Part shown: positions 39,228 to 54,418 of the stretch, piece by piece | Layout of the letters: each line of letters opens with the position of its first letter | Position numbering within the stretch: the first letter of the stretch is position 1 | Assembly: GCA_003131585.1 (NCBI GenBank) | Contig: PKVW01000024.1 | Span: 41,073-105,072, forward strand | Direction of reading: 5' to 3' | DNA from: Acidobacteriaceae bacterium | GTDB lineage: Bacteria; Acidobacteriota; Terriglobia; Terriglobales; Acidobacteriaceae | Length of the DNA: 64,000 bases | Notes under the pieces: model-generated | Seen by the model: the letters and a program-made list of their open reading frames with translations, nothing else | Database searches by the model: none | What the model was told of the DNA's origin: nothing | Program-made: the position numbers and the translations under genes

Positions 39228-41942
39228 ATGTATCTCGCCGGCCTGCCTCACGAAATCACGCGCTGGAGTTCATTGGTTGAGCAGGATGACCCGACCAATC
39301 TTCCTCTCGGCGTTCTTGCCGTGGCGAAGAACTCGCGCTTTCATTTGACCAGCGTGCGCACCCGCGACGGCATCCAAAGTCAGTTCGGCTTCGTTCTGCC
39401 GGATGGCGGCGCCGTGACCGGATTGGTTAGCTCCAAATTGAGCGGGAACCCCGACGTGCAGATCCCGGTGGCCTTTAGTGGTTTGGGGCATCTGTATCAG
39501 GAACAACCCGTGGGCTCGGGCGTCCTGAAGCTGATCTCCAGCCCGCAGGTGCCGCCGGCCGCCGGGGCCAGTATGCAGGTCGCCTCCGCCTACCAGAAGG
39601 ATTATCTGGCCTTCGGCAACCTCGTGAACTCTTTGGCTGCACCCGCCGTCTTCAACCTCCAGACTGGTTTCCTTGATCCGCTCTCCATGAAGCCCGTGGG
39701 GATGGGTTGGCTCGCCGCCACTCCATACAACGTCGGGGAAGTAGTGACGCCGGCGGCGCCTGTGGGAGGCAACGGGCACACCTACATCTGCACGGTGGCG
39801 GGAATCAGTGGAGCGAACCAGCCGGTATTTCCCCTCACCGCCGGTGGCACGGTCGCAGATGGCGGAGTGACTTGGAAGGAGCAGACTGCGATCATGGCGC
39901 AGGCTCTGCCCGAGCCCGCGATCCCAACCGTGGCCCGCAACTCCGGCGCTGGAACATTCGCTGCCAACCGCGACGTGTACCTGATGGTCACGCTGGTGAA
40001 TGGAGTCGGCGAAACCGACGCGCAACTGATTCTCGCCTACAAATACACCAACACCACACTCAACGATCAGTTCACGGTCACCGCGCCCGTGCTTCCGGCC
40101 TGGGTGCAGGCGCTGGCCGCTCCCTATAAGCCCATCGGCTACAACGTTTACGAGGCGGACGTGACCACTGGCAATCCGGCGCCGGCGCTTTCGAGTTACG
40201 CCCTGGTGAACCTCGCGCCGGCAGGGCTCGCCGCCCCGACTAACGTCAACACCACGGGAACCGGGGCCGCGCCTCCGGTGTCGAATGGGGCGTTGGTTGC
40301 GCCCGCGGGAAATATTTGTGCCGGGCTGCGCTACATGGTCGTGCTGTTCTTGAACCGGAATGGCTACATCTCCGGCATGACGCAGGCCTCGGTCATCGTC
40401 TACAACTCGCCGACCAACGGCTATCAGCTCTATGTCGCGAATCTTCCCATCGGGCCTTCGAATACGCAGGCGCGGATCTGCGCCTTCACTCCCGCCGGGC
40501 AGTTGAGCCAGACCGCAGGCTACGGCATCTCGAATGCGGGGCCGTACTTCTGGATCGAGCCGAACATTCCGACCGCCGCCTTCAATCTCAACAACCCCAA
40601 CATCTTCAGTTTGATTCCCGGCGGCGTGACCATCGCGGACGTGGTGAACGGCGTCGAAGAGACTTCGACGCTGATCAACGACAACACCACCACCAGCGCC
40701 TTCTTCAACTTCGACGACACCTACCTGAAAGCCACGCTGAACGACGTGAGTGGCAATTTCCAGAATATCCAGGTGCCTCCGGTGTCCGACGTGTATTACT
40801 CACCCACCTTGGACCGCATGATCTACGCCCCGGATTCGTTGCCGAGCGGTTGGTATGTGTCGGAGCAGGGCGATCCCGAGACTGTCTACGGAGACAGTGG
40901 CTTGGTCCAGGTCGCGCAAAATAACGGTGAGCGTCGAGTCGCGGTGCGGGAGTATCAGGGCATCGTCTATCTGATGAAAGAACGCTCCGGCTATCAACTC
41001 GCTCCCTCGGCGACGGAACCGAACACCTGGGACGCAGCGCCGCAATGGAACGGCTCCGGCCCCTGCGGACCGCGGGCGGTCGATGTCTGCACCCGCTTCA
41101 TGGCCTATGTGCATCGTTCCGGGCTTTATATTTTTCAAGGCACGCTTCCCGTCCGTATCTCGAAAGAAGTTCCGATCACTTGGGGCCAGATCAACTGGGC
41201 GGCGGCGCAGACGATCTGGGTGATGATCGACGACGAGACCCAGGAGATTCGCATCGGCGTGCCGCTCGGCCAGAGCACGGTCCCCAACAAAGTGCTCAAG
41301 GTGAACTACGAGGAGTCGCCCGACTTCGCGCCGCCCATCCACTTCTCGCCCTACATCGGAAAAGAGATTGCGACCGGGGAATGCTACAAGTGGTCGGTCG
41401 ATGACATCGCCGCGAACCTGGCGATCCGCGCCTATCGTCCGCTGGTGAATCCGCCGGCGACAATGGACCCCGGCACCACGCAGTCGCAGATTCTTTACGC
41501 TTCCTCGAACCCGGACGGAGAGGTCAACGCGGTCATTCCTTACGTCTTCGACGACAACGGGGAAGGCATCGACTGGGTGGTCGAAAGCGTCTGCCCCAAC
41601 GACAGCCCGCAGGACAACCTGCTGAAGCCGAGCCAACTCGGAGGAGTGCAGGTCAATCTGAACGGCAACGGGCAACTGGGCTGCGAGGTTTTAGCGTTAC
41701 GAGGAAAAGACCCCAAGGATGGTGGGCCGCCGCTGGCCGGAACCGCCAAAGCGAATGTCGGGATGGTGAAGCGGCTGCCGAAGCCGATCATCGCCGGCGT
41801 GCCTTACTCCTGCGCGGCCCGGATGCAGAACGAGAAATTCCGCATCCGCATCACCAACGACAAGAAGCCGGGACAGTGGGGCGATCTGTTCTGGGCGTGC
41901 ATTTATGCGACGCCACTATCGAGCGCGAGGCCGGGCCGGTGA
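39228..41942 (+). CDS. Large tail protein, possible tail-tubular-B position
   Basis: 904 aa beta-rich ORF; position between capsid and internal virion genes. Confidence 0.5.
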   Translation: MYLAGLPHEITRWSSLVEQDDPTNLPLGVLAVAKNSRFHLTSVRTRDGIQSQFGFVLPDGGAVTGLVSSKLSGNPDVQIPVAFSGLGHLYQEQPVGSGVLKLISSPQVPPAAGASMQVASAYQKDYLAFGNLVNSLAAPAVFNLQTGFLDPLSMKPVGMGWLAATPYNVGEVVTPAAPVGGNGHTYICTVAGISGANQPVFPLTAGGTVADGGVTWKEQTAIMAQALPEPAIPTVARNSGAGTFAANRDVYLMVTLVNGVGETDAQLILAYKYTNTTLNDQFTVTAPVLPAWVQALAAPYKPIGYNVYEADVTTGNPAPALSSYALVNLAPAGLAAPTNVNTTGTGAAPPVSNGALVAPAGNICAGLRYMVVLFLNRNGYISGMTQASVIVYNSPTNGYQLYVANLPIGPSNTQARICAFTPAGQLSQTAGYGISNAGPYFWIEPNIPTAAFNLNNPNIFSLIPGGVTIADVVNGVEETSTLINDNTTTSAFFNFDDTYLKATLNDVSGNFQNIQVPPVSDVYYSPTLDRMIYAPDSLPSGWYVSEQGDPETVYGDSGLVQVAQNNGERRVAVREYQGIVYLMKERSGYQLAPSATEPNTWDAAPQWNGSGPCGPRAVDVCTRFMAYVHRSGLYIFQGTLPVRISKEVPITWGQINWAAAQTIWVMIDDETQEIRIGVPLGQSTVPNKVLKVNYEESPDFAPPIHFSPYIGKEIATGECYKWSVDDIAANLAIRAYRPLVNPPATMDPGTTQSQILYASSNPDGEVNAVIPYVFDDNGEGIDWVVESVCPNDSPQDNLLKPSQLGGVQVNLNGNGQLGCEVLALRGKDPKDGGPPLAGTAKANVGMVKRLPKPIIAGVPYSCAARMQNEKFRIRITNDKKPGQWGDLFWACIYATPLSSARPGR

Positions 41943-41964
41943 AGGCTGCTCTGACGATGACACG

Positions 41965-43215
41965 ATGAGCACCGCTTTGGCGCGTTACGCCGGGGGCTTC
42001 AAGAGTGGCGACCCGCAGCAGATGTTCCAAGGCTGGAATGCGTTAGTCGCGGAGATCAACGCATTGCAGGCGGCGGCCGGAACGAGTGATCTTGCGCCCG
42101 CAGGCAATCCCTCGACCGTCGCGCCTCCGCAGACGGCGCAGTTCACCGTGGTCGGCATCGACGGGAAGTTCGTCGTCTTCGTCACCAACCCGCAGAGCGT
42201 TGTGCCGGTGAGCGTCTCGATCTTGCGGGCCCGGATTCAAGCCGGATCGAACAGCACCCACACGCCGATTCTCCATCATCTCCAGTCGGCCACGACGCTC
42301 AACTTCGACCAGAGTTCCAACCTGAAAGATTACGGCATCAGTTCGCAACTGGTGTGGACCGATCAAGACCCGAACATCACCCGCTTCTTCCGGCTGCAAA
42401 GCTCCTATGACGGAGAGACCTGGAACGACTGGCAGTTTTTCTCGAGTCCCGAGCAGTGTGGCCCGGTGGGAGTCTGGTCCGGGCTGCTCAGAACGGCTGC
42501 ACTGACCCAGGTAAACGCCGCCTATACTCCGACCACGCAGCCACTCACAGCCTCGACCGGGGCGGGGGTGAATCAAGCCACCATCAACGTGGCCTCTTTC
42601 CAGGTGCAATACCCCAGCTCGATTTCGCCCGCCACTCTTGGGCTGGTGAACTATAACAGCGGCGCCATCACGCCGTTGCTCGATTCGACGGTTTACTACG
42701 TCTACTGCCTCGATGCGAGGTATGCGGGCGGCGCACAAACTTACTTCGCCACCACCGCCAACCCGCAAGTAACTGGAAACGAAGCCACAGTATTCCTAGG
42801 GACAATTACGACGCCGGCCTATGGCGGAGGCGGGACAGGCGGGGGCGGAGGCGGAAATGGGCCATGCTTCAGCGGGAACACTCGCGTCATCACGCGGGAC
42901 GGAATCAAAAAGATTTCCGACGTGATCGGCGGCCACGATGAAGTCCTGACCCAGCGCGGCTGGCGACAAGTGCGGCGATTGATTGAGCACGATTACGACG
43001 GCCCGATGCGGGACATGGGCAACGAGGAGCAAGTGACGCCACCGCATCGTTTCTGGGCGCAACGCGATTGGGTACAGGCGTTGCATATTTTTCTCACGAT
43101 CATCTCGCGCTTGGTCGGTTCCGTCTTCAACCTCGAAATTGACGGAGACGGCTCCGATGAGGAGCAGTGCTACACCCTGGCGAACGGCTGGATTGCGCAC
43201 AACTTGCGCAAATAA
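41965..43215 (+). CDS. Late virion-type protein with C-terminal Hint (intein/BIL-like) domain
   Basis: GGGGTGGGGGGNGP linker then CFSGNTRVITRDGIKKISDV...EEQVTPPHRFWAQRDWVQALHI...VFNLEIDG...CYTLANGWIAHN-LRK. Confidence 0.85.
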   Translation: MSTALARYAGGFKSGDPQQMFQGWNALVAEINALQAAAGTSDLAPAGNPSTVAPPQTAQFTVVGIDGKFVVFVTNPQSVVPVSVSILRARIQAGSNSTHTPILHHLQSATTLNFDQSSNLKDYGISSQLVWTDQDPNITRFFRLQSSYDGETWNDWQFFSSPEQCGPVGVWSGLLRTAALTQVNAAYTPTTQPLTASTGAGVNQATINVASFQVQYPSSISPATLGLVNYNSGAITPLLDSTVYYVYCLDARYAGGAQTYFATTANPQVTGNEATVFLGTITTPAYGGGGTGGGGGGNGPCFSGNTRVITRDGIKKISDVIGGHDEVLTQRGWRQVRRLIEHDYDGPMRDMGNEEQVTPPHRFWAQRDWVQALHIFLTIISRLVGSVFNLEIDGDGSDEEQCYTLANGWIAHNLRK

Positions 43216-43217
43216 CC

Positions 43218-43475
43218 ATGGCCCACTTATCGGCGATCGTGAATGTGTCGGAGCCGGCGGACGGCATTCTCGCGGTGACCGTGCGCTGCTGCGGGGATGA
43301 GAAAACCGATTCCGTAGTGACGATCCACGAACTGCATCGCTCCCCGGAAGAACTGGACCGGGAGGTGAAAGCCCACCAGTCAAGAGTGGAGACGCTGCAT
43401 GCTCAGAAGCAAGCGGCGAAGGGCCATATTCTGCGGCTGGCGGGATTGAAAGATCGAGGCTGCGGCTGTAAATGA
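43218..43475 (+). CDS. Hypothetical late protein
   Basis: MAHLSAIVNVSEPADGILAVTVRCCGDEKTDSVVTIHELHRSPEEL. Confidence 0.5.
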   Translation: MAHLSAIVNVSEPADGILAVTVRCCGDEKTDSVVTIHELHRSPEELDREVKAHQSRVETLHAQKQAAKGHILRLAGLKDRGCGCK

Positions 43476-43896: not shown

Positions 43897-44589
43897 ATGC
43901 GCATCAAGACACGTATCGAAGGTATCTGGATTGACGGAAAGCCAGTCGTGCTGCGCGAGGAAGGCTTCGACTACTCCGGGCCACTCGCGCTCTGTGACCG
44001 TTCCACCAGCGGCAAGATTGCCAATCAAAGCATCGCCAACTCGCAACAAGACCAGGCGAACGCCACCACCGCGTTGTCGGGCACAAACTCGGCGCTCTCG
44101 AAGTATTCCACCAACCTCGACAACTTCATGAAATTCGGCCGCTCGACCTATGGGGCGAACGGCGAGTTCATGAAAGACCAGAACACGCTCGCCAACACCA
44201 CGGCGGCGGCGGGAGAGACCAACCTTAAAGGCAACCTTGCGCTGAATGCCCTGAAGACGGGAGCGAACACCGCAGGCTACGCCGACACGGCGGCGGAGTC
44301 CGAACGCCAAGGCGAAGAGGCGGTCACCAGCCAGTTGGCGGGCGCGGACGCCTCGCGTCTGGCGCAACTGACGGCGGTGAACCAGTACGGCGTGCAAGCC
44401 TCGGCGCTGCCGGCCGAAGTGCAGGCGGGCTTGTATGGAACCAGCGTAGGCGCATCGAATTCGGCCCTTGGGGTCGCAAGTTCCGCGTCGGCGGCCGACC
44501 CGAGTTTTGCGGACACATTGCCGGGCGATCTGACCGCAGCCATCGGGGCGGCTGGGCAAGTGGCCAAGGGCTTTACTCCGCACGGTTGA
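43897..44589 (+). CDS. Internal virion/ejection protein candidate (T7 gp14 position)
   Basis: Ala/Gln/Asn-rich helical protein preceding larger internal-virion-type ORFs. Confidence 0.45.
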   Translation: MRIKTRIEGIWIDGKPVVLREEGFDYSGPLALCDRSTSGKIANQSIANSQQDQANATTALSGTNSALSKYSTNLDNFMKFGRSTYGANGEFMKDQNTLANTTAAAGETNLKGNLALNALKTGANTAGYADTAAESERQGEEAVTSQLAGADASRLAQLTAVNQYGVQASALPAEVQAGLYGTSVGASNSALGVASSASAADPSFADTLPGDLTAAIGAAGQVAKGFTPHG

Positions 44590-46357: not shown

Positions 46358-49300
46358 ATGTCGTCCTACGCACTCAGCGAAGTCGAAGAAGCCCCGAGTT
46401 ACTCGGCGGACCAGGTAGAGGAAGCGCCCACGACGCAGCAATCTTCGGCTGCGCTCGATCAGGTGGCGCGTCCGCAGTCCCCTGCCCCGGTAGCGCCTGT
46501 GTCTCCGCGTCTTTCTCTCGGCCCGACTCCGCCCGCACCGCGTCCGGTCGCTGAAGGTTTAATCACCGAGCAAGAAGAACGCCGCGCAAGAATGCCGCTC
46601 ACGATCCAGCCCACGAGTGGAAGTCTAGAGAATCCGCATCCCGAACAAGTAGTCGCCACGCCGCGGCCGAATCGAACGTTGGCCGCGCCCGCGCAGCCGA
46701 ACGTCAACGTAGAGGAGCCGGGGGCCGTTCCCGTGCCTGTGGGTCCAAAATTCACAAACCCAGGCAAGGCTACGCCGCAAGAAGCCGCCTACGATCTTAG
46801 TTTCAGTGATCCCCTTCTGCGCCCTTATCGCGGTGCCGCTGAACTCTACCACGGAGTGAAGGACCTTCCGCCCGATCCCAGGAAACCTGGAACCTACCAG
46901 GAGCAAGCAGAACGAGGCACAACGGAGATTCTGAGAGGAGCGACGGATGTCGCAACCCCGGTGATGATCGCGGGGGCGGTCGCACAGCCGGAACTCGCCC
47001 TCCTCGCGGGTGCTGGCGCTGAGGCAGGAAGTTACGGCGCGGGAAAGCTGGCCGACGCGGTAAAAGCCTCACCCGACACCAAGGCACTGCTGCAAGAGGT
47101 CGGTGGCATCGCCGGAGGGTTTGCTGGCGGTTTTGCTCACGGCGGGTTGCGATCTGCGGCCAGTCCCGAAGACGCGCTCACCGATCTGCTGTGGAAGCGC
47201 GGCTACATCCGGGACGCCCAGCGCAACCCGGTCTCGTTCGCATCCGAAGCCGAGGCCCGGTATGCGGCACGAGAGATACTCCGCCAGAATCCACCAGGGA
47301 TAATCGACTCCCTACGTCAGAAAGGTGCTTACAAAAGAGCAGGCGCGGAACTGCCGCAGGTTTCTCCCGCAGAAGCCGCCAGACGAGCCTCCGCAACTGC
47401 CGAGTTCAACGCCCGCGCCCGAGCAGCAACCAGCCATGCCGACGATGTAGTGGCGGACATATCGAAGCTGACTCGCCCCCAACTCGCCGAATACATGGCG
47501 AAGTCGGCATCCCCGGACAAGCCTCTCGGCGATCCCGACGTAGCCAAAGCGATGTATGTAGCCGACCGCGAAGCCGCGCAGACACCGGCGCCCGCGCCGC
47601 CAGAAGCCCCCGTAGAAGCTCCCCGACCTTCACCCGCTCCAGCAGTCGCCCAGCCTCCCGGAGTCTCGCCTCAGGCCTTCACCTACGAGAATGCAAAAGC
47701 GGCCGTCGAAGACTTCTTAGACCAGCATGGGCGTGTGTCGCCGACCGTCCTCCAGCGCAACCTGAAACTGGGCTACGAGAATGCAAAGGCCGTTCTGAAT
47801 CGCATGGTTGGCGAGGGGGTGCTTCAGACCGATAGCAAGGGGATTGTCTTCACACGGCCCACAGAAACGCAAGCAGCAGCTATTCCTGAGTTCCGAGCGG
47901 ACGAAGTGGAAGAAGCCGCGCCTGCGGTAGAATCGAGGGGTGAAACTGCCCCAGCAGTATCGAACGCTCCCGCCGCGGCACTGGCCGCTGCCCGACCGAC
48001 AGGCCCAAGCGGAGGCACTGAATCAGTTGCTCGACCAAGCCCCGCCCCAACTCCTCAATCAGTTGCTCCAGCAAGTGCTCCGGAGGGTGAAAAAGAGTCT
48101 TCGTTCCAAAAAGGTGACTCCGTAACCCTTCCCGACGGCCGCTCGGGAGAAGTGAAGTACGTTTCTCCCCAAGGAAAATCTCCCGTGGTCACGGTCACGG
48201 TAGATGGCAAGACGGAAAGGTTTGTGGGTGCGAAGGAAGTTCAAGGGCTGAAGGCGGTAGAATCAGCCAATGCAGGCGCAGATAACGCTCCATCTGAACC
48301 GGAATCTGTCGCGGCGCAGACGAACCAGGCTCCGGCGTCTCCTGCTGCAAATGGTGAGCGCGTTACTGAAACAACTCCCGCCGAGAAGTACAAGTTCGGT
48401 TCCACCCAAGCCAATATCCCCGACGAATCTCCCGCCGCGAAAGCCCTCTCGACTGCCCGTGCGCGGATCTCGAAAGAAGACCTCGCCGGAGACGGCATCG
48501 ACGTAGGCGGCAACCACGTCACCGTCCGCTACGGGATCAAGGGTGAAGACGTTGAAGGAGTAAAGAAGTATCTCGCATCGCTCGCTCCGTTTGAAGCCTC
48601 TCTTGGACCAACGGAAACTTTCCCGCCCAGCGAACACTCCGACGGCGCCGCCGTGATCCACGCCCCCATCGTTGCCCCGGAGTTGCACCAGATCAACGCG
48701 GAACTGGAAAAGCACGGCGACTTCAGCGAGCCGAACTTCGACTACAAGCCGCACGCAACTGTCGCCTACGTGAAGCCGGAGAAAGCCAGCCGTTATGTGG
48801 GGATGAGTGTGACGTCCGGGCAGAAGTTCCCGGTGTCGGAAATTGCCATCACGGATAGACAAGGCAATCAGCAGGTGGTGAAGCTCGAAGGGAAAGGTGA
48901 GACGACCGCTGCGGCTCCGGCATTGCCACGCGACCTTGCAGGAGCAAAACCGCGTTACGGCTATCAGGACAAATTATTCCAGTTGCAGTTTGAAGACCCG
49001 CGCGATCTAGCCCTCTATACCGTGGCCCAGAGTACGCCGAACAAAGCGCACGGTCGCTACATGGAATGGCTGCGTGGACAATTCCCGAAACTCAGCGACG
49101 AAGACATTGTTCGTGGCGGTCGTTCCATCCGGGAACAAATCAAGCCTCTCGCTCGTGAAGGCAACCCAGCGGCCGGCCCACTCGTAATTCCGTCGCGGCA
49201 GGGGGAACCGGCATCGAAACCGGCCAGCGAGACACAAGCGCCACAAGCTGAGACGATTGCGGCCAAAGGTGAGACGAAGCCTGTCCGTGAATTTGCCGCA

Positions 49301-52300
49301 CATGAAGTCGAGGAAGCGCCAGCCGCAAAGAAGTCTCTCGCCCCCGAGCCAACGAAGCCCGAGCGCGAACGCCAGACCTTAGGGCTTCCGCCCGAACCGG
49401 GCCGCGTGGGAGAGATGAACATCCGCGACCTGAAAGTCGCGCCGAACAAATTCCAGTACAAACTCTCGACCGATGCCGAAGGCGTAGGCACGTTGCTCAA
49501 GGAAACGAAGGTCTGGAATCCCGATCTGGCCGGGATGGTCTCGGTGTGGCGCGATCTCTCCGACGGCAAGACCTACGTGGTGAATGGGCATCACCGCTAC
49601 GAACTGGCGAAGCGTTTGGGAGTGAAGACTCTGGTCGTCCGGCATATCGTTGCTCCGACCGCCAACGCCGCCCGCGCCATCGGAGCGGAACAAAACATTG
49701 CAGACGGGCGCGGCACGGCTCTCGACGCGGCGAAGTTCTTCCGCGATTCCGCCATTACCCCCGCTGACTTGAAAGAGAAGGGCATCTCGCTCGGCGAAGC
49801 CACGGTCGCCAAGGGAGTCGCACTGGCAAATCTCAGCGAACCCATCTTCAACCAGGTGGTGCAGGGTGATCTCACGCAAGGCCGCGCCGTCGTCATCGGA
49901 GAAGCAACCAGCGACCCGGCAGAACAAAAAGCGGTTCTCGATTTAGTCGAACGCAAAGAGCGTTCAGGAAAGAAAGTCTCCGACGACACACTCTCGGAAT
50001 TGATTCGCCTGGTGAAAGGCTCCGGGCAAACGACCGAGACCACCGCTGATCTTTTCGGAACCCAGCAGATCAACCGCTCGCTCGCCTTAGAGAAGGCGGA
50101 GATCTCCGCCCACATCAAACAGCAATTGGCGAAAGATAAGAAACTCTTCGGCTTCGTCTCGAAGGGCGACCGGGCCTCGGAACTGGAACGCGGCGGCAAC
50201 AAGATTGACGTGGAGAAATCGAAACAACTTTCAACTGGCGCAGCGCAAGCGGAAGAAGTCTATAATCGCCTGAGCGCGCGCGGAGGGCCAATTGCAAACA
50301 TCCTCGATGAATCCGCCCGGCAACTCGCCGACGGCGACAACGCCGCAAGCGTCAAATCCGAAGCCTACAGCCGCATCCGCGCCGAAGTATCCAAAACTCT
50401 CGGCGGCGGAGAAGGAAGCGGTACTGAACGACATGAAGGAACACCAGAGCCTCCAGAAGGCGTTACACACTCCCCCAAGCCCGACGATTCAGTAGACCTC
50501 TTCTCCGGTGCCCAGCCCGTCTTCCACGAACCGCTTCCACTGTCTGCGCGCACCGCCAAAGACATCAACTTTGACCTGATCGAGACCAGGGCTGGGATCG
50601 CGCCATATTTGCGCGTGAATGACGCTGCGGCAAAAGCCATCAGCCACTCGCTGGGACACGCTTTTCTCGGTGTAAACATCGACAAGGCCAGTGTCGGGCG
50701 GGCGTCCGCGGCGCTGCGAAGCGCTGCCTCATCGGCGGAGGCGAATAAGGTTGACGCAAAAGCAATCCGTCAGCTAAGAGGGCTGGCGGATGCGCTCGAT
50801 GAGGCACTCGACCGCGACCCGAACGCGGGCGTCAATCTGGTACGCCAAGGCCCTAGAGAAATTGGGACGGCTCACGAAGAACTCATCCACTCCGCGCAAC
50901 GCCGCGCCGGAAAAGGAAATATCGGGTTCGGCGTACCGTGGCAAGAGAGTCTAAAAATGCCCGCGTTTGCCGAACTCGGGGCCAATTCCATCGTTCCGCA
51001 GTTGCGCGCCGCTGGGCTTCCGGCCCCCGCGTCCACAATCGTGGCTGAGGGCATCGTGGACATCATGCGCGGTGAGGCAGCGCTTGAGGGCGTCAGCATC
51101 ACTGACGCCTTGGAAGCCGCCAAGGTATATTTTGAATCCGCGTTGGCACACTATGGCATCGAACACCTGAACGAACTACAGGCGATTCAGGATTATGCTA
51201 ACGACACCGAGAGAGAAACCAATGTCACCCATCACCCAGAAGTTCTGGCCATCCGGCGAGCCGGGGAAGCGGCTCTCGCCCGAACAATTGCTCGAGGGAC
51301 TGGAAAAGCATTGGGACGAACTGGAGCAACAGTACAAAGCGAAGCCCAGCTCGGAACTGAAGAACGAAATCGTGCACCTGGTGCAAAGGATAGCGGCCCA
51401 CCGGACGACACAGGGAAAGCCGATAAAGGACCTTCTTCCACGACTAAAGGCCCTGCCTACTCCACCCAGCCCATCGGCCTCACCGACGAAGAGTTAGAGG
51501 ACTGGTCGAAATCGAGAGGCTTCCGCGTCGAACCGGCGGGAGAACAACTCGACATCTTCGGCGGCAATCAATCCGTGATGCGCGTCTTCCGCGCCGGACG
51601 CGGCGGCAAAGAGCAAAAGGGCCTCGTCTATCAGAGTCAGCTCGATCAACTGAGTCAACCCAAGCCCGAACCGACAGAACCGTTCGCGCTCACCGGCGGC
51701 GAAACTCGCGAGCAGCAGCCCACGCTCTTTGGCGCGGGCGACCTCGGAGAGATCGTCGGCAATCCCAAAGCAGAGCGCGGCATTCAACTTCCTTCGCAGC
51801 AGCGTGACCGAGGGACTTCGCTATTTAAGCCGGAACACCGGAAGGAAGACCGCGAGTCTCTTCTCACCGGCGAATCCGGCACCCTCACCCCTTCCCTCTC
51901 CGCCGCCAAAGCCGTCTACGCGAAATTCATCAACCGCATCATCGACCGGAACCTCGACCTGGGCGACAAATACAAGCGAGTCGCCGAGCACGACCCCGCC
52001 ATCGCAACGATGCTGAAAGAGAAAGACAACGCCCCGCGCTACTTCCACGCCAAAGCGGAATCGAACGTGGAGCAGGTGGCCAAGGGACTGAATGAGTCGC
52101 AAGTCCGGCTCGCCGCGATGATGGCCGACTCCGACTCCCGAGAATTCTTAGAGGAGAATCACCCGGAGCAGTTCCAGGAAGCGCAGGACGATCCGGCTGT
52201 GATGGACGCCGTGAAGCAGTTCAAGCAGTACCAGGACGAGTTGGCGGCGATCCGCATCTCGCTCGGCTGGCACGTTCGCCGCGACCTCTCGACGCTTGAA

Positions 52301-54418
52301 GATGAAAACGGAGACTGGTCGGTGGTGGACCGCGACGGCAACGAAGTGGAGACCTTCGGCAAATCGCAAAAAGACGCACAGGAATACGCCGAAGAAGTGG
52401 GCGAAGTGCTCGACCATCTGAAGCGCACCTACCCCGAGCACAAGCGCGAACCGCTGATGGGACGCACCGACGAAGGCCCCTCGCTGGGCGCATCTTACGG
52501 TGGAATCAAAGCCCCCCGCCCCGACAAGAAACAGCGCATCGCCACCGCACAATACTTCTACGAGCACGGCGCGAAGGACTTCTCCGGCTACGTCAAGAGC
52601 TTCACCCAGGCCTACCACGCCGCGCTGAACCAGAAGATTTACGACTCGCTCACCGACGAAGCAACGAAGTGGAAGGAAGGCACCGCCCAGCCGCCGCAGA
52701 TCGAGTACCGGGGCCAGACCTACTACTCTCCCGACGTCGCCAAGTCGATGAAGCTGGCGAAGCCGGAGAACCGCCCCAAGAAGATTCTCGAATACCGCGC
52801 TTACGACCCCGCCAAAGACGACAAGGTGATGATCCGGGATTTCGAGAACGGCTGGAGCACGACGACCACCGGCAGGCCGGGGATCAGCGCCCTGGACCGC
52901 TACCTCGCGCCAAAAGACGTGGTGGACGCTTTAGAGCACTACGACATGACGCGGGGAGCGGAAGAGGGCAACTCCATCCGGCGCTTCTTCCAGGATCAGA
53001 TCGTGGGCTTGTTTGGCCCCAACATCCACGTCTTGAACATCATGCGGCGATTGGCTACGACGGTGGGAGCCGGAGCCTGGGACCCGCGCGTATGGCCCTA
53101 CTACCAGAGGCTTTTCTTCTCGAAGGAACTGCGGGAGCGCATGGCCGAAGGGCTGGCCGACGACGCCATCGACACGCTCTCGAAGTGGGGCACCTACACC
53201 AACACCAAAGATATTGGCAGCCTGCACGACTACGTTCTCGGCAATATGGACCCGAGGAATTGGGCGCGCTGGACCATCGGCAAGTTCTCGAAAGGCGTTT
53301 TGTTCGATCCGAAGTTCCTCAGAGGCTTCGGCGGGCTCGACCAAAAAGCCCGTGTGCTGGCCTACGACTTCCTGCATGCCCGCGCCGGGATGAACGAAGA
53401 GGAAGCCGCCAAGAACGTCGAGGACGGCTTCGGCAACTACAACAAAGCCAACTGGACCGAGCGCATGAAACGTTGGGGGCGGGCACTTCTCTTCCCCGGC
53501 TGGGACTTCTCCAGCTTGAAATGGTTCCTGCGTCACCCCATCAAGACGGCGCTCCCTGCGCTGGTTGTTATGGGCGCAAACCTCGCGCTCAACAAAGCGG
53601 GCAAGAACCGCGACTCCGACAAATACGACTACAGCTATCTGCACTACGGCGACCGCAAGTACCGCACGGGGTTAATCACCGAGCCGATGGCGCTGCATCT
53701 GGTCGAACCTATCCTTGCGGCCGGACGAGCCGCACTCGAAGGCGGCGACACGCGAGACATTGCAGGTGCGGCAGGACAAGGCATGCTGCGCGGCGGCGGC
53801 GGACTGGCGGGCGATCTGCGTCCGGATATCGGCGTTGCTACTGAACTACTCTCAAACCGTCAGTACTTAGGCGGAGAAAAAGAAATCTGGCGACCGGAAG
53901 ATGCGAACATTCCCGGTACGGTGCTGCCTACGCGTAAGCTAGAAAAGATGCTGGCCTTCTCCGTGGTCAAAGCCCTGCCCGCCGTGAGCCGCTTCCTTGA
54001 TACGAGTTTCGAGAGCCTAGACCGGGCCACTGTCGCGGGCAGCGTCATCGGCGTCACGAATTACAAATCCGGCGCGGAAGAAAGATTAAAAGCGAACGAA
54101 GCGAAGGCGATGGGATATTCACAGACCTTGAGTACGCTGGCGGAGCGCGAACCGGACGCGGCTGAGAGATTCGTCCAGGAACCGGCGAAGGCTCCGTATC
54201 TGATGTTCAACAAGGACCTTGCGGAGCTCGGGAAAGACCTCAAGAGTATCGACACCGAAATGGAGCGGGTGAAGATCGCCGAGATCCCGTATGCTGACCG
54301 GAAGCGGGCGCTCGAAGACCTCAGAACCTCACGCTCGCAACTCTTGCAATCGGCGGACGCGCTCGATGAGGAACTCACGACCGCGAAGCTGCAGATGAAG
54401 AAGGCGGCGGGTCAGTGA
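46358..54418 (+). CDS. Giant polyvalent ejection-type protein (2686 aa)
   Basis: Gly-rich hydrophobic segment near N-terminus; FtsK-gamma-like wHTH, SH3-like, 2H-like and ParB-like segments; T7 gp16 position. Confidence 0.8.
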   Translation: MSSYALSEVEEAPSYSADQVEEAPTTQQSSAALDQVARPQSPAPVAPVSPRLSLGPTPPAPRPVAEGLITEQEERRARMPLTIQPTSGSLENPHPEQVVATPRPNRTLAAPAQPNVNVEEPGAVPVPVGPKFTNPGKATPQEAAYDLSFSDPLLRPYRGAAELYHGVKDLPPDPRKPGTYQEQAERGTTEILRGATDVATPVMIAGAVAQPELALLAGAGAEAGSYGAGKLADAVKASPDTKALLQEVGGIAGGFAGGFAHGGLRSAASPEDALTDLLWKRGYIRDAQRNPVSFASEAEARYAAREILRQNPPGIIDSLRQKGAYKRAGAELPQVSPAEAARRASATAEFNARARAATSHADDVVADISKLTRPQLAEYMAKSASPDKPLGDPDVAKAMYVADREAAQTPAPAPPEAPVEAPRPSPAPAVAQPPGVSPQAFTYENAKAAVEDFLDQHGRVSPTVLQRNLKLGYENAKAVLNRMVGEGVLQTDSKGIVFTRPTETQAAAIPEFRADEVEEAAPAVESRGETAPAVSNAPAAALAAARPTGPSGGTESVARPSPAPTPQSVAPASAPEGEKESSFQKGDSVTLPDGRSGEVKYVSPQGKSPVVTVTVDGKTERFVGAKEVQGLKAVESANAGADNAPSEPESVAAQTNQAPASPAANGERVTETTPAEKYKFGSTQANIPDESPAAKALSTARARISKEDLAGDGIDVGGNHVTVRYGIKGEDVEGVKKYLASLAPFEASLGPTETFPPSEHSDGAAVIHAPIVAPELHQINAELEKHGDFSEPNFDYKPHATVAYVKPEKASRYVGMSVTSGQKFPVSEIAITDRQGNQQVVKLEGKGETTAAAPALPRDLAGAKPRYGYQDKLFQLQFEDPRDLALYTVAQSTPNKAHGRYMEWLRGQFPKLSDEDIVRGGRSIREQIKPLAREGNPAAGPLVIPSRQGEPASKPASETQAPQAETIAAKGETKPVREFAAHEVEEAPAAKKSLAPEPTKPERERQTLGLPPEPGRVGEMNIRDLKVAPNKFQYKLSTDAEGVGTLLKETKVWNPDLAGMVSVWRDLSDGKTYVVNGHHRYELAKRLGVKTLVVRHIVAPTANAARAIGAEQNIADGRGTALDAAKFFRDSAITPADLKEKGISLGEATVAKGVALANLSEPIFNQVVQGDLTQGRAVVIGEATSDPAEQKAVLDLVERKERSGKKVSDDTLSELIRLVKGSGQTTETTADLFGTQQINRSLALEKAEISAHIKQQLAKDKKLFGFVSKGDRASELERGGNKIDVEKSKQLSTGAAQAEEVYNRLSARGGPIANILDESARQLADGDNAASVKSEAYSRIRAEVSKTLGGGEGSGTERHEGTPEPPEGVTHSPKPDDSVDLFSGAQPVFHEPLPLSARTAKDINFDLIETRAGIAPYLRVNDAAAKAISHSLGHAFLGVNIDKASVGRASAALRSAASSAEANKVDAKAIRQLRGLADALDEALDRDPNAGVNLVRQGPREIGTAHEELIHSAQRRAGKGNIGFGVPWQESLKMPAFAELGANSIVPQLRAAGLPAPASTIVAEGIVDIMRGEAALEGVSITDALEAAKVYFESALAHYGIEHLNELQAIQDYANDTERETNVTHHPEVLAIRRAGEAALARTIARGTGKALGRTGATVQSEAQLGTEERNRAPGAKDSGPPDDTGKADKGPSSTTKGPAYSTQPIGLTDEELEDWSKSRGFRVEPAGEQLDIFGGNQSVMRVFRAGRGGKEQKGLVYQSQLDQLSQPKPEPTEPFALTGGETREQQPTLFGAGDLGEIVGNPKAERGIQLPSQQRDRGTSLFKPEHRKEDRESLLTGESGTLTPSLSAAKAVYAKFINRIIDRNLDLGDKYKRVAEHDPAIATMLKEKDNAPRYFHAKAESNVEQVAKGLNESQVRLAAMMADSDSREFLEENHPEQFQEAQDDPAVMDAVKQFKQYQDELAAIRISLGWHVRRDLSTLEDENGDWSVVDRDGNEVETFGKSQKDAQEYAEEVGEVLDHLKRTYPEHKREPLMGRTDEGPSLGASYGGIKAPRPDKKQRIATAQYFYEHGAKDFSGYVKSFTQAYHAALNQKIYDSLTDEATKWKEGTAQPPQIEYRGQTYYSPDVAKSMKLAKPENRPKKILEYRAYDPAKDDKVMIRDFENGWSTTTTGRPGISALDRYLAPKDVVDALEHYDMTRGAEEGNSIRRFFQDQIVGLFGPNIHVLNIMRRLATTVGAGAWDPRVWPYYQRLFFSKELRERMAEGLADDAIDTLSKWGTYTNTKDIGSLHDYVLGNMDPRNWARWTIGKFSKGVLFDPKFLRGFGGLDQKARVLAYDFLHARAGMNEEEAAKNVEDGFGNYNKANWTERMKRWGRALLFPGWDFSSLKWFLRHPIKTALPALVVMGANLALNKAGKNRDSDKYDYSYLHYGDRKYRTGLITEPMALHLVEPILAAGRAALEGGDTRDIAGAAGQGMLRGGGGLAGDLRPDIGVATELLSNRQYLGGEKEIWRPEDANIPGTVLPTRKLEKMLAFSVVKALPAVSRFLDTSFESLDRATVAGSVIGVTNYKSGAEERLKANEAKAMGYSQTLSTLAEREPDAAERFVQEPAKAPYLMFNKDLAELGKDLKSIDTEMERVKIAEIPYADRKRALEDLRTSRSQLLQSADALDEELTTAKLQMKKAAGQ
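51222..51497 (+). CDS. Candidate overprinted ORF (91 aa) in +1 frame of the giant gene
   Basis: MSPITQKFWPSGEPGKRLSPEQLLEGLEKHWDELEQQYKAKPSSELKNEIVHLVQRIAAHRTTQGKPIKDLLPRLKAL; main frame is linker-like here. Confidence 0.4.
   Translation: MSPITQKFWPSGEPGKRLSPEQLLEGLEKHWDELEQQYKAKPSSELKNEIVHLVQRIAAHRTTQGKPIKDLLPRLKALPTPPSPSASPTKS

Follow-up and report, generated by a model that had tools for sequence, protein, structure and literature searches.

Hint domains, whose length a review gives as 140-160 residues (PMC5874633), are described in several settings. A-type bacterial intein-like domains (BILs), marked by a non-nucleophilic +1 residue, mainly cleave (PMC7664689; PMC5874633). They lie in variable regions and have Cys1, a TxxH motif and a terminal His-Asn (PMC7765530, PMC5874633), as in the Clostridium thermocellum domain 2lwy. 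Vint domains (PF14623; 8r2c) end proteins of VWA-Vwaint-Vint architecture, and in these proteins it is mainly motifs A and B that are conserved (PMC2362128). In the openly accessible literature searched, the only phage proteins described with Hints or inteins were terminase, helicase and ribonucleotide reductase. The domain described here, at the C-terminus of a putative tail-fibre-type protein of a prophage, would by its sequence work like an A-type BIL, and its structure model is closest to Vint; it is not a Hog domain, nor is it an intein of the conventional kind.

The Hint-bearing protein is encoded in a stretch of 64,000 nucleotides of an Acidobacteriaceae contig, hereafter the window (Table 1; loci found in other genomes are designated by L and a number). 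Its start codon is probably the ATG at 41965, giving 416 aa, which is preferred over 41905 because positions 41905-41942 overlap the upstream 904-aa gene. An earlier sequence-only reading of this DNA had placed the Hint domain at 42865-43215, after a linker and followed by Leu-Arg-Lys, and its coordinates are right: the linker lies at 42823-42864, Cys1 at 42865-42867, and Asn113 ends at 43203. The catalytic set comprises Cys1, Thr58-x-x-His61 and His112-Asn113, and the TAA stop occupies 43213-43215. At the corresponding linker junction locus L090 has GGGGTGGGGFGP directly followed by Cys. Relatives of the gene adjoin tail fibre and virion genes. In L023, a syntenic prophage of a related bacterium, the gene order is unchanged and a Gly-rich, Hint-less gene takes the position of the Hint-bearing one. 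Gene neighbourhood and relatives thus support the description of the protein as virion-type in the sequence-only reading, and a tail-fibre-type phage virion component is the best reading of it.

Table 1. Features of the Hint-bearing locus in window coordinates.
Feature	Position	Strand	Remark
904-aa virion-type protein, upstream	39228..41942	+	PHROG head-decoration-like stretch 1.6e-8; weak virion structural match 0.007; ortholog 85%
Hint-bearing protein ORF	41905..43215	+	ortholog L003:5062-6354
Carrier domain (SGSITGL..T.YYVY.DDP.Y.GGAVTY.ATT...ITTP)	42637..42837	+	common to ~70 distinct viral proteins; module slot after it
Gly-rich linker GGGGTGGGGGGNGP, 14 residues	42823..42864	+	predicted scissile Pro-Cys bond at linker end
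Hint domain, 113 residues, Cys1 to Asn113	42865..43203	+	alignments, structure model, dN/dS
Leu-Arg-Lys after terminal Asn, the whole 'C-extein'	43204..43212	+	Ala-Arg-Lys in L003
Small downstream gene, 85 aa, VTVRCCGDEKTDSV	43218..43475	+	same-type gene after most complete Hint carriers and some Hint-less ones

We are nearly certain that the Hint domain is real and conserved and that its fold is secure. Family profiles match its N-terminal half below their curated cut-offs (Pfam Vint, E=3e-4, 21.0 bits against a cut-off of 27; NCBIfam intein_Nterm, E=3.5e-3), and L093, a relative with 44% identity, exceeds the one for Vint (27.6 versus 27 bits). The AlphaFold2 model, for which the domain was aligned to 10 further phage Hints (pLDDT 92.7, pTM 0.84), has the Hint fold, whose absence from a structure prediction the sequence-only reading had named as evidence against itself. 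The 50 PDB matches listed are to inteins, BIL and Vint domains only; among them the Tetrahymena Vint domain 8r2c has the best TM-score (0.80, rmsd 2.1 Å) and the gp41-1 intein (6qaz) the best Foldseek E-value. Cys1, Thr58, His61, His112 and Asn113 are invariant in an alignment of 11 phage Hints, and all five are kept in L090, L093, L183, L184 and L205; block A Cys1 and block B TxxH are invariant in a 4-sequence alignment as well as in that of 11. The block F His is replaced by Gln.

One IMG/VR contig (L002) is identical to the window in the Hint region over the 12.4 kb compared. An IMG/VR ortholog (L003), 73% identical in the Hint and 69% in the carrier, keeps all five catalytic residues. Between it and the window dN/dS is ~0.13 for both Hint (0.227/1.70) and carrier (0.239/1.83) by the Nei-Gojobori method, values that are only approximate because dS is near saturation; the two are under equal purifying selection, which indicates that the Hint is maintained like the remainder of the protein. 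From Cys1 to Asn the domain measures 113 residues in the window, L003, L093 and L205, 110 in L090, and 119 and 120 in L183 and L184, and most of the stretch that separates blocks B and F in phage J-protein Hints (130 residues) is missing. The window Hint is shorter than the 140-160 residues usual for such domains (PMC5874633). To our knowledge, it is also shorter than any characterised mini-intein.

The sequence-only reading had proposed a complete C-terminal Hint with no real C-extein, of BIL or hedgehog type. Cys1, TxxH and His-Asn are indeed all present with three residues after them, and of the two types the BIL holds, given the terminal His-Asn, non-nucleophilic +1 residue and variable host region. 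The hedgehog type does not: a Hog domain has a sterol-recognition region and no terminal His-Asn, whereas the window protein has no such region and ends three residues past its His-Asn. Judged by sequence the window Hint has the features of an A-type BIL; its model has a TM-score of 0.72 to 2lwy, and its site is variable, the same slot holding a Hint, a bare Gly tail or other modules. It differs from 2lwy in length (113 versus 138 residues), in having three residues after the Asn and in belonging to a phage tail protein. Vint is the closest structure among the matches listed, the best Pfam match and likewise a C-terminal Hint that ends its protein; however, the window protein has neither VWA nor Vwaint domains, so that the Vint architecture is lacking, and it keeps the terminal His-Asn. 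Mini-inteins such as gp41-1 (6qaz) share the fold and blocks A, B and G, but the window Hint is shorter, lies outside any conserved site of a conserved protein and has only Leu-Arg-Lys where an intein has a host C-extein starting with Cys, Ser or Thr. In polymorphic toxins a toxin domain follows the PT-HINT domain, whereas nothing follows the window Hint, which has no PT-HINT match.

A query made of carrier end and Hint retrieved 27 viral loci, and the carrier domain alone 80; removal of duplicates and one open frame left 72 distinct carrier proteins. Their C-terminal slots hold a Hint-type module in 19 cases, a bare Gly-rich tail in 39, a longer unrelated domain (discoidin-like by eye) in 8 and other ends in 6, counts that are not population frequencies because the loci were chosen by similarity. 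All 19 modules have His-Asn 3-8 residues before the stop. Seven Hints are complete, with Cys1, TxxH and His-Asn (window, L003, L093, which equals L155, L090, L183, L184 and L205), and the terminal His-Asn is present in every one. The residue after it is non-nucleophilic in six of the seven, Leu in the window and Ala, Pro, Ile, Met or Tyr in five relatives, the exception being Thr in L093. L205, from a bacterium of the same family, bears its complete Hint on a different carrier, a 1233-codon frame that is tail-hub-like by eye; Hint-like variants were also seen in L156 and L176. In the isolated-phage and plasmid collections neither the window protein nor the L090 end had a close relative, the only matches being weak (E>0.1). 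A first search of the phylum with a two-sequence profile returned, besides the window itself, only ribonucleotide reductase inteins, and a first scan of genome contigs gave no match. The Hint fold itself is already known, but a short phage-tail Hint family in a modular slot that keeps its His-Asn with no real C-extein appears to be undescribed in the openly accessible literature searched; the sequence-only reading did not foresee this wider modular family.

A second, divergent type of Hint occupies the same slot (L094, L096, L097, L100, L103, L104, L108, L114, L117 and others). It keeps Cys1 and His-Asn and has SxxT in place of TxxH. Intein, Hedgehog and BIL entries in the PDB are matched both by its profile (best four, E 8e-4 to 5e-3) and by its model (pLDDT 91.6). 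Direct comparison of the complete and divergent profiles gave no match (probability 0.2), so their relation rests on these separate profile and fold matches. Jumbo Xanthomonas phages also have divergent Hints, in genes of the tail region, and none of the members tested falls into a specific family of Pfam, NCBIfam or PHROG. Divergent-type proteins (L094, L100, L118-L120 and others, many of them in prophages) end in HN-xx-KP or similar, mostly with an xxKP tail. L118:3-1652 (KU682439.2), a divergent-Hint frame of at least 550 codons that opens the record of Stenotrophomonas phage DLP_6, has no annotated gene.

From its sequence and modelled fold, we think it fairly probable that the window Hint is a short, A-type-BIL-like module of Vint fold that cleaves itself from a tail-fibre-type protein, of which it would be a removable C-terminal part. 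After folding, Cys1 would attack the preceding Pro-Cys bond in an N-S acyl shift aided by Thr58 and His61. Next the thioester would open, with water or a small thiol as the likeliest attacking group; this would release the Hint and give the remaining protein a Gly-rich C-terminus (...GGGGGGNGP). Cyclisation of Asn113 would remove the Leu-Arg-Lys tail. That cleavage occurs, the order of its steps and the trimming of the fibre end as its purpose are all three what we infer. As far as can be read from their sequences, the complete members hold every residue needed for the N-S acyl shift and Asn cyclisation. The Gly-rich C-terminus predicted from cleavage between Pro and Cys is how the 39 Hint-less relatives end by translation alone, and these ends are, at the level of sequence comparison, the strongest argument for trimming. 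Since related phages carry, swap or lack Hints at exactly the same place, self-cleavage may serve phages in completing their tail fibres.

Counting against self-cleavage, as read from the sequence, are the Pro at -1, the absent block F His and the short domain. Pro at this position is often unfavourable to N-terminal cleavage. Many ribonucleotide reductase inteins, however, also have Pro before Cys1 (TNP/C); for this reason it need not block the reaction, and we rejected the argument that the Pro makes the domain inactive. If N-cleavage alone mattered, one would hardly expect a His-Asn that nothing follows to be conserved, and the function of the slot may not need N-cleavage, because the divergent Hints have lost the block-B His. 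An uncleaved cap, in which the Hint fold serves as fibre tip or folding aid and its catalytic residues are mostly structural, would fit divergent Hints that keep the fold in the same slot with no block-B His, as well as the Pro at -1 and the missing block F His. Retention of the whole catalytic set in all complete members, and of Cys1 and His-Asn even in the divergent type, speaks against such a cap, which we hold to be quite improbable. Rather improbable, too, is splicing close to the terminus, in which the Hint would be excised and the tail of 3-6 residues joined to the Gly-rich end, as in A-type BIL splicing with no nucleophile, restoring an end that resembles the Hint-less relatives. Some A-type BILs can splice (PMC5874633), and such a reaction would account for a His-Asn conserved beside a tiny C-flank. 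A terminal Pro is found after 10 of 19 Hints and on 19 of 39 bare Gly-rich ends, against 39 of 411 background ORFs, although the sequences are related and the p-values of this enrichment overstate their independence. Divergent Hints end in HN-xx-KP or HN-KLLP and bare ends in ...LLP or ...IP; yet the +1 residue is mostly non-nucleophilic, and the tails LRK (window) and ARK (ortholog) are unlike the bare ends. To read the terminal-Pro pattern as a sign of splicing that restores a conserved end is speculative.

Hint chemistry would also allow a nucleophile on a second molecule, of the virion or of the host surface, to capture the Cys1 thioester, attaching the fibre end covalently in a hedgehog-like manner, and the +1 residue is not a nucleophile. 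In most genomes with a complete Hint a small gene with a conserved Cys pair (RCCGD), in the window that at 43218-43475, is co-located. The small gene of L090 has no such pair, however, and the pair is present beside the Hint-less carriers L171, L172, L174 and L185; as it is not exclusive to Hint carriers, we rejected this gene as a Hint-specific partner. Acyl transfer would moreover not require the conserved His-Asn, and no recognition domain is attached to the window Hint. We regard it as unlikely; ligation or attachment is possible but without support. Next to many Hint-less carriers the place of the small gene is taken by another one (VKRVLIGNDHDD...), with a 4-base overlap. A decaying relic of a homing intein, suggested by intein-like motifs with no endonuclease domain, was already disfavoured and is very improbable given the location in a variable Gly-rich end, the dN/dS of ~0.13 and the recurrence of the Hint on several carriers.

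Besides self-cleavage of the window Hint we tentatively entertain a wider reading, doubtful as it is: an exchangeable C-terminal slot on tailed-phage fibre proteins for self-processing Hints that would trim or re-ligate the Gly-rich end, with His-Asn and the short tail taking part in a near-terminal excision, as a general and previously undescribed autocatalytic fibre maturation. If true, a recurrent, exchangeable Hint at the tip of a tail protein puts self-cleavage into virion maturation or host contact. The five members of 110-113 residues offer unusually short natural Hint domains for protein engineering, and the reason why every type conserves a C-terminal His-Asn with few residues behind it is a sharp, testable question.

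Hints were also seen elsewhere in phage tail proteins. Lambda-J-type tail tip proteins (L029, Pfam-confirmed as J, L036, L041, L043, L044, L048, L052 and L058) carry a 130-residue Hint with Gly-rich sequence on both sides, apparently two in tandem in L043. As in the window, a Gly-rich flank precedes Cys1 in a phage tail protein, and His-Asn is followed there by Ala; unlike the window Hint, these domains lie at the N-terminus and are followed by Gly-rich sequence and the entire J protein. A 569-residue phage protein (L031, L038, L046) has a C-terminal Hint after GGGGG, with ~23 residues past His-Asn and a weak PT-HINT match. Further along the window, positions 46358-54418 encode a giant protein of polyvalent type (2686 aa), in which a 2'-5' RNA ligase domain was recognised (PF13563, E 2.7e-9). 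Three genes downstream of the Hint-bearing one lies a gene (43897-44589) whose ortholog, L003:7018-7968, has a CFI-box-CTERM domain at its end (NF041770, E 5e-6, below cut-off). This domain comes after GQGP/C, the same Gly-Pro-Cys junction as that of the Hint, and a second CFI-box copy lies ~1.7 kb further on, in a duplication; the window copy of the gene has no such domain.
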